This document shows positions 1 through 7,827 of a DNA stretch of 22,915 bases, one piece after another. Every line of letters starts with the position of its first letter. The stretch's first letter is position 1. The translations under genes were made by a program, and so were the position numbers. Under the pieces are notes generated by a model. That model had not been told where the DNA came from, did no database searches, and saw only the letters and a list, made by a program, of their open reading frames with translations. The DNA comes from a virus: positions 1-22,915 of IMG/VR virus record IMGVR_UViG_3300030333_004565. One strand, 5' to 3'.

Positions 1-177
1 AAGAATCAGAAAATTCAACCCATTGAATACATTCTGGCAAACGAGCTGCCTTTCATTGAAGGCAACATCGTTAAATACATCACGCGCTGGCGTGAGAAAG
101 GGGGAATCGAGGACTTAAAGAAAGTCCGGCACTACGTCGAAATCTTAATGGAGTATGAGAATGAACACGATAAGTAG
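1..177 (+). CDS. DUF3310 family protein (5' partial)
   Basis: The reading frame is open from the first base to TAG at 175-177, giving 58 residues, so the N-terminus lies outside the window. The sequence shows the DUF3310 pattern: an I-E-Y-I start, then F-I-E-G-N-I-V-K-Y-I-T-R, then G-I-E-D-L-K-K and a tyrosine-containing helix. This small all-helical domain is common in phage replication modules, often beside the DNA polymerase gene, and is sometimes labelled a nucleotide kinase without good biochemical support. Its 3' end overlaps the polymerase start by 17 bases and supplies that gene's GGAG ribosome-binding site, so the two are probably translationally coupled. The family assignment is fairly sure; the function is not known. 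Confidence 0.8.
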   Translation, partial: KNQKIQPIEYILANELPFIEGNIVKYITRWREKGGIEDLKKVRHYVEILMEYENEHDK

Positions 178-2074
178 ATTACAGTTCCCTTTGTTTACCC
201 CTCCTTCGGAGTGGGTTCCACCTGACCCTCTTCCTGACCTGACTGACGCTAAAGAAATTGCGATAGACCTTGAGACACGAGACCCGGATCTTAAAACCCA
301 AGGCCCGGGCTGGCCCACCGGGAACGGTGAGGTTGTCGGCATAGCTGTCGCAGTCGAGGGCTGGTTTGGATACTTACCAATTGCTCATCTGGGCGGCGGA
401 AATCTGGATAAGCGCATTGTCACAAACTGGTTGAGAAAGCAGCTCGTAACCGATTGCCCGAAGATTATGCACAACGCTCAGTACGACGCGGGTTGGCTAC
501 GTCAGATGGGCATCACGATGAACGGGCCAATCGTAGACACCATGATCATGGGTTCACTGTTGGACGAGAACCGATTTAGTTTTTCTCTGAATGCACTGGC
601 TTTCGATTATCTGGGCGAAGCAAAGTCTGAACGGACCCTCACGGAGGCTGCGATAGATTTCGGGGTTGATCCGAAGGCTGAACTTTGGAAGTTGCCCGCC
701 CAGTTTGTTGGATCGTATGCGGAACAAGACGCCAAGCTGGCACTGGACCTGTACAAATTTTTTAAAGTTCGGCTGGCAGCGGAGGATCTTTCCACCGTCT
801 TTGATCTGGAGACTCGGTTGACCCCATGCCTGATCGACATGACGTGGCGCGGTATCCGCGTGGACATGGACCGCGCTGAGCGGACCAAACAGGAATTACT
901 CAAACGGGAAAAGGACACCCTGAAAAGGGTGAAAAGTCTTGCTGGGTTTAATGTTGAGATCTGGGCAGCGGCATCACTGGCTAAAGCATTTGATACGCTG
1001 GGACTGCAGTACCCCAAGACAGACAAAGGTGCGCCGTCCTTTACCAAGTCCTTTCTTTCCGAGCATCCGCATGAGTTCCCCCAGCTAGTCGTCAAGGCGC
1101 GGGAGCTGAACAAAGTCCAAGGGACTTTTATTACTTCAATTATGAAGCACGTAGGACCGGATGGTCGTATCCATGGGCACGTGAATCAGATCCGTTCTGA
1201 TGACGGGGGCACCGTTAGCGGTAGGATCAGTATGAACAACCCCAACCTTCAACAGATCCCGGCTAGAGATCCAGAGCTGGGTCCAATGATCCGCTCGTTG
1301 TTTCTACCGGAGGAAGGTGAGCAGTGGGCCGCAATAGATTTCAGTCAGCAAGAACCACGGATCTTGGTTCATTACGCAAGCGTCTTTGGCGAGTGGAAGC
1401 GCACGTCGCTACGGGGCGTCGATGAGTTTCTGGATGGCTATCGCAATGACCCTGACATGGACTTTCATACGATGGTCTCAGAGATGGCTAACATTCCACG
1501 CAAGCAGGCCAAGGTAATAAATTTAGGCATGATGTACGGGATGGGCGTCAACAAGCTTGCTGCACAGCTCGACATCGAGCCAGAGGAAGCGAAGGAGCTG
1601 ACCAAGCAATACCACTCCCGGGTTCCCTTTGTAAAAGAACTGATGAACGGCGTAAGTTTAAAAGTTGAAAGCTCTTCCGGGGATGGTGCTGTGCGCTCCC
1701 TGAAAGGCCGTAAATGCCGTTTTGAGCTTTGGGAGCCAAGAGGGTTTGAGTTACGCAAAGCGTTGCCCAGACAGGAAGCAGAGGCCCAGTACGGGTCCAC
1801 CGCCTCTTTAAAACGCGCCTACACCTACAAAGCCTTGAACCGTTTGATCCAAGCGTCAGCGGCTGACATGACCAAGCAGGCTATGGTCGATATGTACGAG
1901 TCCGGGGAAACCCCGCTGGTGCAGGTACACGATGAATTAGGTTGTAGCGTACAAGACCGGAACCACGCGGTAAAAATTAAAGAGCTTATGGAAAACGCCA
2001 TTACTTTAAGGGTTCCCAATAAATGTGACATCGATCTTGGGCCATCGTGGGGCGAGGCAGAAGAAGTAAAATAG
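161..2074 (+). CDS. polA: DNA polymerase I (family A), 3'-5' exonuclease plus polymerase
   Basis: Replicative family A DNA polymerase of 637 aa. I prefer ATG 161 over the in-frame ATG 155 because GGAG at 150-153 sits 7 bases before 161 but only 1 base before 155. Visible motifs: exonuclease I DxE (D36, E38), exonuclease II with N105 and D109, exonuclease III YxxxD (Y186, D190), polymerase motif A around D393 (DFSQQEPR), motif B R447...K451...Y459-G460, and motif C H590-D591-E592. There is no N-terminal 5'-3' exonuclease domain, as is usual for phage forms, which explains why it is shorter than E. coli Pol I. In motif B the residue equivalent to E. coli F762 is leucine (L455), a variant discussed for environmental phages as a lifestyle marker. 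It follows the DUF3310 gene with an overlap. Confidence 0.97.
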   Translation: MNTISRLQFPLFTPPSEWVPPDPLPDLTDAKEIAIDLETRDPDLKTQGPGWPTGNGEVVGIAVAVEGWFGYLPIAHLGGGNLDKRIVTNWLRKQLVTDCPKIMHNAQYDAGWLRQMGITMNGPIVDTMIMGSLLDENRFSFSLNALAFDYLGEAKSERTLTEAAIDFGVDPKAELWKLPAQFVGSYAEQDAKLALDLYKFFKVRLAAEDLSTVFDLETRLTPCLIDMTWRGIRVDMDRAERTKQELLKREKDTLKRVKSLAGFNVEIWAAASLAKAFDTLGLQYPKTDKGAPSFTKSFLSEHPHEFPQLVVKARELNKVQGTFITSIMKHVGPDGRIHGHVNQIRSDDGGTVSGRISMNNPNLQQIPARDPELGPMIRSLFLPEEGEQWAAIDFSQQEPRILVHYASVFGEWKRTSLRGVDEFLDGYRNDPDMDFHTMVSEMANIPRKQAKVINLGMMYGMGVNKLAAQLDIEPEEAKELTKQYHSRVPFVKELMNGVSLKVESSSGDGAVRSLKGRKCRFELWEPRGFELRKALPRQEAEAQYGSTASLKRAYTYKALNRLIQASAADMTKQAMVDMYESGETPLVQVHDELGCSVQDRNHAVKIKELMENAITLRVPNKCDIDLGPSWGEAEEVK

Positions 2075-2123: not shown

Positions 2124-2294
2124 ATGGATACAACAAGATGGAAAAGCATTTTGGTGCCGATTGAAGTGTATCGGCAAGTACGCGAGATTGCTCACTTGGA
2201 AGGGAGGACTATCTCCGGGCAGCTTCGGCTGATTTTTGAGCAATGGAAAGAAGATAGAAAGCAAGAGGCTAGGAAACTTGACGGAGTTGCCTAA
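2124..2294 (+). CDS. Small ribbon-helix-helix-like regulator
   Basis: A 56-aa ORF. Its N-terminal part reads as a short beta-strand (K-S-I-L-V-P-I), then a helix (E-V-Y-R-Q-V-R-E-I-A), then a G-R-T-I-S-G-Q-L turn and a second helix. That is the layout of Arc/MetJ-type ribbon-helix-helix DNA-binding proteins, which act as dimers on palindromic operators. The ATG lies 8 bases after a perfect TATAAT and no Shine-Dalgarno sequence fits in that gap, so the mRNA is probably leaderless, as lambda cI is from PRM. A stem-loop and then a strong terminator follow, so it forms its own unit. It is a candidate binder of the palindromes found upstream of the cassettes at 8.6-11.4 kb; that link is inference. 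Confidence in coding is good, in fold moderate. Confidence 0.7.
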   Translation: MDTTRWKSILVPIEVYRQVREIAHLEGRTISGQLRLIFEQWKEDRKQEARKLDGVA

Positions 2295-2341: not shown

Positions 2342-2377
2342 TAATCGGCAGAAACCTCGCTAGTTTAACGCCGAAAG

Positions 2378-2418
2378 AGCCTCGGTTAGCCACCTACTAA
2401 CCGAGGCTTTGTCTTTTT
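2378..2418 (+). terminator. Intrinsic terminator
   Basis: A perfect 12-bp inverted repeat, AGCCTCGGTTAG (2378-2389) with CTAACCGAGGCT (2397-2408), has a 7-base loop and is followed by TTGTCTTTTT. It ends the RHH transcript. Any transcript of the downstream gene must start after it or read through it. Confidence 0.85.
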
Positions 2419-2423
2419 AGGCC

Positions 2424-2552
2424 AAGGGGAGTAATAACCCCTTCATGCGTAGCTTAGCCCTCTGCGGGTCGAAAACGGGCTTTACCTCTTTAGACCAAAG
2501 GATAGCTCATCCTTCGGAGCAAGACCGGTCCACTTGTGGTCGAAAACGGACC
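2424..2552 (+). ncRNA. Tandem structured RNA element (two copies), riboswitch-like leader
   Basis: Two copies about 71 bases apart have the same secondary-structure plan. Copy 1: hairpin AAGGGG (2424-2429) with CCCCTT (2438-2443), then AGCCC (2456-2460), 16 bases, GGGCT (2477-2481). Copy 2: hairpin AAGGAT (2498-2503) with ATCCTT (2509-2514), then GGTCC (2527-2531), 16 bases, GGACC (2548-2552). Both 16-base loops end in the identical GGTCGAAAAC. The stems differ in sequence but keep pairing: two compensatory changes in the first helix and two in the second. The last helix ends 8 bases before the GAGG Shine-Dalgarno of the next gene, so folding could control its translation. I do not recognise a known riboswitch class. 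Alternatives are a protein-binding leader or a DNA-level hairpin array. Confidence 0.6.
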
Positions 2553-2568
2553 TTTAATTGAGGTAACC

Positions 2569-2757
2569 ATGAAAAAAACGAAACAAGAAGAAAGCAAAGA
2601 GCTAGAAGATCAAGTCGCTGAGTTTTTAAAAAAAGGCGGGAAGATCGAAGAAGTAGACATAACCGTCTCTAATTCTAAAAAACTGGAACTATCTAAACGT
2701 TTCTTTGCTAAAACCAATTACTTTGTTTATCGACAGGACAAGAAAAAGGGACCGTAG
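2569..2757 (+). CDS. Small SutA-like protein (possible RNA polymerase-binding)
   Basis: A 62-aa highly charged protein. ATG 2569 is preferred over the in-frame GTG at 2536 because GAGG (2560-2563) is spaced 5 bases from it, and because the GTG lies inside the structured leader. Residues 12-29 (L-E-x-x-V-A-E-F-L-K-K-G-G-K-I-E-E-V) resemble the conserved part of the RNA polymerase-binding segment of SutA-type small regulators; if correct, the protein would modulate host transcription. This rests on one short motif. The C-terminus is basic (KKKGP). The gene ends 5 bases from the stop of the convergent minus-strand unit. Confidence 0.6.
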   Translation: MKKTKQEESKELEDQVAEFLKKGGKIEEVDITVSNSKKLELSKRFFAKTNYFVYRQDKKKGP

Positions 2758-7404: not shown

Positions 7405-7827
7405 ATGAAAGTAAGTGATGAAGCTTGGTGTCTTTATGAAAAGACAAACGTATTTCTTATGGAAAGATCGATACCAATCCGGTTTCGAGACTGCCCAAGC
7501 AAAGAACCAAAGATCGATTTGGCTCAAGCCCGGAAACTGGCGCGACTTTGTTTTAGAAAATTTTCTAAAATGCCGCTCAGTTTCTACGTTGACAGAATCG
7601 AAGCGATCTCAGGTTCGACCCATACTTGGACCGACAACAAAAAAGGCAAGGTAAAAACCTTGCTTGTCAATGTCCACAAAGACTGGGGCGAGTTCATTCA
7701 TGACCTGTCTCACTTGATTCAGGTTAAGAATCAATCTCGATACCGCAGGGGCAAAGCTTGGCACTGCGCGGAACACGCGGCTTTGGAATTCAGGATCGCA
7801 AAAACGGTCTTGGAGGATTGCCCATGA
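7405..7827 (+). CDS. Hypothetical 140-aa protein with histidine-rich, possibly metal-binding motif
   Basis: The C-terminal half carries F-I-H99-D-L-S-H103 and W-H120-C-A-E-H124-A-A-L-E128, a spacing of histidines and acids that could bind a metal ion. The H-D-x-S-H then H...E layout resembles short hypothetical proteins of plasmids and prophages, sometimes called putative metallopeptidases. It is not the canonical HExxH zincin motif, so enzymatic activity is unproven. The N-terminal part is basic with L-A-Q-A-R-K-L-A-R-L. The start follows leader box copy 2; the stop overlaps the next ATG (ATGA at 7824-7827). Confidence 0.8.
   Translation: MKVSDEAWCLYEKTNVFLMERSIPIRFRDCPSKEPKIDLAQARKLARLCFRKFSKMPLSFYVDRIEAISGSTHTWTDNKKGKVKTLLVNVHKDWGEFIHDLSHLIQVKNQSRYRRGKAWHCAEHAALEFRIAKTVLEDCP

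Follow-up and report, generated by a model that had tools for sequence, protein, structure and literature searches.

Tandem copies of a previously undescribed three-way-junction RNA locked by a pseudoknot precede a SutA-like gene in an uncultivated phage

The window, meaning the whole stretch of 22,915 nucleotides analyzed here, is a 22.9-kb virus record of an uncultivated phage, on which a family A DNA polymerase gene and a ribbon-helix-helix-like gene are accompanied by terminase and portal genes. Two copies of a small RNA element sit between a strong intrinsic terminator and a gene for a SutA-like protein (Table 1). A sequence-only reading of this DNA had placed two tandem repeats here, and both are present, with AAGGGG/CCCCTT in copy 1 and AAGGAT/ATCCTT in copy 2 as its stem 1, and AGCCC/GGGCT and GGTCC/GGACC, respectively, as its stem 2. 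It was also right about the four compensatory base-pair changes between the copies and the GGTCGAAAAC that they have in common. The gap between the last stem, which ends at 2552, and the Shine-Dalgarno sequence GAGG, which begins at 2560, is 7 bases and not the 8 it had counted. The downstream gene is SutA-like, as proposed (Pfam SutA-RBD, E = 1e-12). A search of window 2376-2569, between the terminator and the SutA-like gene, for a sigma-70-like promoter found none; following a strong terminator, this suggests that the element and the SutA-like gene may depend for their expression on read-through or on an unrecognized promoter. Separately, a terminator-like hairpin at 2748-2761 overlaps the end of the SutA-like gene.

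Table 1 Features of the window around the two copies of the RNA element
Feature	Position	Strand	Details
Family A DNA polymerase gene	155-2074		
Ribbon-helix-helix-like gene	2124-2294		
Strong intrinsic terminator	2376-2418	+	14-pair stem 2376-2410, then GTCTTTTTAG; U-tract continues into copy 1
Copy 1 of RNA element	2418-2481	+	R1 match 2416-2483 (in R1 training set)
Copy 1 of RNA element	2418-2480	+	R2 match, E = 0.0072 (outside R2 training set)
Copy 1 P1 5' strand GGCC	2420-2423	+	Partner 2467-2470 GGUC, one G-U pair; P1 covariation
Copy 1 P2 hairpin AAGGGG...CCCCUU	2424-2443	+	Sequence
Copy 1 P4 hairpin CGUAG-CUUAGCCCU-CUGCG	2448-2466	+	Strands 2448-2452 with 2462-2466
Copy 1 P3 5' strand AGCCC, inside P4 loop	2456-2460	+	Partner 2477-2481 GGGCU, pseudoknot
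Copy 1 P1 3' strand GGUC, then joining strand GAAAAC	2467-2476	+	
Copy 2 of RNA element	2491-2552	+	R1 match 2489-2554 (in R1 training set)
Copy 2 of RNA element	2491-2550	+	R2 match, E = 0.0056 (outside R2 training set)
Copy 2 P1 5' strand GACCA	2493-2497	+	Partner 2537-2541 UGGUC
Copy 2 P2 hairpin AAGGAU...AUCCUU	2498-2514	+	
Copy 2 P4 hairpin CAAG-ACCGGUCCA-CUUG	2520-2536	+	Strands 2520-2523 with 2533-2536
Copy 2 P3 5' strand GGUCC	2527-2531	+	Partner 2548-2552 GGACC, pseudoknot
Shine-Dalgarno GAGG	2560-2563	+	7 nt 3' of copy 2
62-aa SutA-like gene	2569-2757	+	Pfam PF20661 SutA-RBD, E = 1e-12

Both repeats are instances of an RNA not described before, a three-way junction locked by a pseudoknot, and this fold is well proven. 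P1 encloses the hairpins P2 and P4, and P3 is a pseudoknot between the loop of P4 and a strand just 3' of P1. The element, about 60-70 nt long, begins with a leader UUUAG and continues through the P1 5' strand, P2, a short joining strand, P4, the P1 3' strand, a second joining strand, and the P3 3' strand. The P4 loop spans 8-9 nt in the aligned members, and the strand joining P1 to P3 is short and mostly G/A (GAAAAC, GCAAAC, GAAG, and similar). Both stems of the two-stem plan proposed earlier are real; P1 and P4 had been overlooked, stem 2 is the pseudoknot from the P4 loop to the tail, and what was described as a 16-base loop actually contains the P4 and P1 3' strands. A model of two independent stem-loops was replaced by the junction with its pseudoknot after diverged members were read, and an intermediate H-type pseudoknot of P1 and P3 only was dropped once P4 was recognized.

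Relatives were sought in IMG/VR and by covariance models. Near relatives, whose SutA-like protein is 97-98% identical, carry almost identical elements; in one of them (L003), CUACG stands in P4 where copy 1 of the window has CUGCG, turning a G-U into an A-U pair. A scan of IMG/VR with the pattern TTTAGRCC...GGTCGAAAAC led to two unrelated phages that carry the element immediately 3' of an ssb gene, and among the relatives of this group the 5' RYC strand varies in step with the 3' GRYC strand (GACC:GGUC, GGCC:GGCC, GGUC:GACC). A second scan returned the integrase-encoding temperate phage L136, in which the element lies 5' of another SutA-like gene and P1 reads GAUCA:UGAUC. The covariance model R1, built from SutA-linked members, matched the ssb group as well as new members adjoining relatives of the window polymerase, and tandem pairs were seen in L011 and L029. 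A pattern from members found by R1 gave at least 120 stretches and another pattern gave 19; together, the pattern scans of IMG/VR added more than 100 further contigs and bring the phage contigs found to carry the family to well over 100.

The covariance model R2 was built with P1, P2, and P4 from 23 distant members only, with no window-like sequence among them. It gave 154 matches in 100 loci and 62 more in a further 88 sources, including L136, the ssb group, and both window copies, which it recovered at E = 0.0056 and 0.0072 (726 kb searched). In the 33.6-kb record of a near-identical relative, R2 found the same two copies at E of about 3e-4. A covariance-model search had been suggested by the sequence-only reading, with a lack of homologues with covarying stems as the outcome that would count against it; many such homologues exist, and its proposal of selection on RNA structure is borne out.

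In the main subfamily, the UUCCCGUC loop, the GGCGGG tail, and the GRYC 3' strand of P1 are set by the search pattern, so their conservation is not evidence there, and P3 and the P1 3' strand of these members were left out of the evidence accordingly. The evidence counted comes from the P1 5' strand, which the pattern left free and which still pairs, and from variation in P2, in P4, and in the other subfamilies. In alignment A8 (104 distinct sequences), 93.0% of cells are paired, both-side changes occur in 12 of the 13 pairs, and the covariation score of 0.609 compares with 0.213 in shuffled alignments (0 of 500 reach it) and at most 0.132 when the alignment is slid. Likewise, alignment A9 (57 distinct sequences) has 94.6% of cells paired, both-side changes in 12 of 13 pairs, and a score of 0.667 against 0.225 shuffled. 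Both alignments exceed all 500 shuffles and all slid controls in cells paired and in covariation score, and these controls weigh more than the raw pairing percentages because the alignments were fitted to a model. Moreover, unguided RNAalifold returned the same three-way junction of three helices, with double changes in 10 of 12 pairs, and unguided mutual information ranked P4 and P1 pairs at the top, except for tail columns blurred by the variable length of the joining strand. P1 occurs as GACC:GGUC, GGCC:GGCC, GGUC:GACC, GAUC:GAUC, GAGC:GCUC, GGGC:GCCC, GGCU:AGCC, and GUCA:UGAC, among others, and P3 varies by subfamily (UCCCGU:GCGGGA, GGUCC:GGACC, AGCCC:GGGCU, GGCGGU:ACCGCC, GGUUC:GAACU).

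As a family, the element is new. At family gathering thresholds, Rfam 15 gave no match in the window and 15 other carrier loci (143 kb), in line with the earlier impression of an unrecognized motif, and permissive Rfam scans returned unrelated weak matches only. BLASTN of the elements against isolate phages found no real match, and the isolates nearest by polA (DSL-LC04, 023Pt_psg01, HTVC023P, HTVC027P) lack the element by R2. No description of the motif was found in open-access PMC papers, and the family may already stand unnamed in large-scale lists of phage RNA candidates. Among the matches listed from a GTDB scan, most were weak and probably due to chance; the one strong locus, L316 with two copies (a Sphingobacteriales MAG), is a phage contig inside the MAG, as its proteins are about 90-100% identical to those of carrier phage L197. 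In kind, it has known relatives among the small pseudoknotted elements of phage transcripts. The mRNA of T4 gene 32, which encodes SSB, has a pseudoknot preceding the gene, and one subgroup of the present family likewise adjoins ssb; however, the element lies 3' of ssb and not 5', and its fold is different.

R2 was run on 30 whole virus records and matched 23 of them, each at one region with 1-3 copies; as the model misses some members of the SutA-like subgroup, the seven records without a match may still contain the element. The 84 distinct arrays comprise 45 single, 34 double, 4 triple, and 1 quadruple (39 of 84 tandem), with the four copies of L225 as the family maximum. Within tandem arrays, spacers of 1-11 nt separate most copies, and the period is 62-73 nt for most. 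By mechanical ORF calls, which make the class sizes approximate, an upstream stop codon lies within 12 nt in 36 of the 84 arrays, and a start codon with a Shine-Dalgarno sequence follows 5-39 nt downstream in 37, at 16-20 nt in 24 of those; in several arrays, the leader UAG is itself the upstream stop codon. The downstream genes are unrelated (SutA-like, AlpA, SNF2 helicase, PDDEXK-like DUF3799, HTH proteins, a 63-aa protein, and others). Some arrays stop at a gene of opposing direction, either DUF6496 (L170, L207, L244) or polA (L010, L168, L257), and some are far from both neighboring genes; where a gene is adjacent, the element has the strand of that flanking gene. Placement is thus independent of gene identity. 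The association with small regulator genes suggested by the window alone does not extend to the family, in which SNF2 helicase, PDDEXK-like protein, HTH proteins, SSB, and AlpA are neighbors and some lineages have no co-directional gene downstream. In the ssb group, L106 (8047-8075) and L122 have a second hairpin, AGCCCCTG..CAGAGGCT, with a changed stem sequence, between the element and the Shine-Dalgarno sequence.

The SutA-like protein of the window scores 47.6 bits against PF20661, the RNAP-binding domain of SutA, above the Pfam cut-off of 29.3, and its homologue in L136 (7441-7647) scores 46.7 bits. In both proteins, the domain begins near residue 3, without the long acidic N-terminus that SutA has in Pseudomonas. 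Hijacking of the host RNA polymerase by these phage proteins is possible. SutA has been described in Pseudomonadales and Alteromonadales (PMC9300723), and the SutA-like gene hints at gammaproteobacterial hosts. The element of L136 is directly 5' of the SutA-like gene, whereas in L150 an AlpA-family gene (2216-2508) lies between the two; in L148 and L149, an odd G/T-rich repetitive stretch (ggtttggcaggtttggtggg...) is found about 200 nt 5' of the SutA-like gene instead of the element. Between the SutA-like and integrase genes of L136, positions 7740-7815 resemble the 3' half of a tRNA, a likely attachment site.

A chance repeat, or a DNA-level feature without RNA function, would agree with the ordinary folding energy of the window as a single sequence (MFE z = -0.28 against shuffles, from a program that cannot model the pseudoknot). 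Because of this value, single-sequence folding lends the fold no support, and the evidence against chance is comparative: compensatory changes run across all three nested helices, and standard G-U pairs are valid only on the modeled strand, as with the G-U pair in P1 of copy 1 (GGCC:GGUC), which is compatible with the + strand only. Together with the shared strand of element and adjacent gene, this leaves such an origin hardly credible. A metabolite riboswitch with tandem aptamers in the style of the glycine and glutamine classes, as the sequence-only reading had it, would account for compact pseudoknotted folds in tandem before genes, and marine phages do carry glutamine riboswitches (PMC9004378); those of the glnA and Downstream-peptide classes are also small junction or pseudoknot RNAs that are sometimes tandem. 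However, Rfam riboswitch models did not match the phage element even with E values up to 10 allowed, the downstream genes share no pathway, and some copies have no downstream gene. Unrelated neighbors and arrays against opposing genes argue against a gene-specific riboswitch. No conserved unpaired core was found either: outside the stems and the pattern-fixed loop, only the A before P1 and the G and A after it reach 80% conservation, and such sparse conservation argues for a role as a structure or a protein-bound RNA, not as a pocket for a small molecule. We therefore consider the riboswitch improbable.

A switch of translation in cis would suit the arrays placed shortly before a start codon: a phage or host protein, or the ribosome, would bind the knot just 5' of the Shine-Dalgarno sequence, the knot would determine how the next gene is translated, and tandem copies would provide cooperativity. 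The layout is common to the window, L136, L150, L009, and L011, and in L009 and L011 a terminator and a promoter-like sequence were seen by eye directly upstream. However, genome compaction alone may explain the tight spacing, the Shine-Dalgarno sequence is not overlapped, no competing anti-structure was seen, and neither the unrelated downstream genes nor the lineages ending against DUF6496 or polA fit well, so that we regard this switch as unlikely. Placement without regard to gene identity, including ends with no downstream gene, favors an effect at the mRNA level or in trans over control of a single gene. In trans, copies cut from the transcript could divert a host RNA-binding protein, as a decoy, or counter a host defense by mimicking an antitoxin, in keeping with a single region of 1-3 copies per genome in the 23 matched records and with neighbors that vary in identity and orientation. 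There is a precedent for tandem decoys of this sort: phage PhiTE evades ToxIN by expanding, at one locus, an array of tandem pseudo-ToxI pseudoknot repeats (PMC3475682). We cite it without claiming membership for the phage element. Both are tandem pseudoknot RNA repeats at a single locus; however, the ToxI unit is 36 nt long, whereas the phage element is a three-way junction with a 62-73-nt period. In addition, no ToxN-family match (PF13958) was obtained in 25 records, although control genomes gave no match either, no toxin appeared among the adjacent genes tested by Pfam, and most arrays have no visible dedicated promoter or terminator. A trans-acting RNA is, in our estimate, just as doubtful as the translational switch.

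Our best guess, with a probability of roughly 0.4, is a gene-agnostic mRNA knot that governs how transcripts decay or are processed at gene junctions; that the fold has this effect on the mRNA is an inference. The element would lie untranslated in the transcript as a spacer separating early or replication genes of the phage, fold unaided, and act in cis at the junction, where it would restrict nuclease access and so set the lifetime or form of the flanking mRNA segment. Tandem copies would act as a repeated barrier, and in the window the knot would cap the SutA-like mRNA made downstream of the terminator. In support, the topology matches that of flaviviral class 1 xrRNAs, in which a three-way junction with a long-range pseudoknot between a loop and downstream sequence, also found in tandem, stops even the bacterial RNase J1 (PMC5760640). 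In the phage element too, a hairpin loop pairs just downstream of a three-way junction. The likeness in topology is no evidence of descent; moreover, the phage element lies between genes of a DNA phage, whereas xrRNAs lie in the 3' UTR of an RNA virus. The xrRNA hallmark, a ring formed when the 5' end pairs with the junction, has no covariation here: mutual information between the 5' flank and the junction gave no signal and no extra pairing, at a sensitivity that two pairs could escape. We therefore do not claim membership in class 1. Three further points count against the mRNA knot: one region per genome is unlike what a general mRNA protector would need, the arrays remote from both neighboring genes do not sit at a junction as expected, and to our knowledge most gammaproteobacteria, the hosts hinted at, lack the 5'-3' exonuclease RNase J.

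It is possible, and we say so tentatively, that the family is the dsDNA-phage counterpart of xrRNAs or a widespread phage RNA decoy against host defense, with shape and not the neighboring gene setting function. If so, it would be a mechanically locked knot that is repeated in tandem at one region per genome. Given the xrRNA-like topology, the single-region tandem layout, and the indifference to neighbors, three distinct candidate functions could be told apart by simple assays in vitro. The covariance alignments are suited to transcriptome searches and to seeding an Rfam entry. Overall, an abundant structured RNA family outside Rfam, with near-complete covariation support, offers a handle on RNA-based control in uncultured phages.
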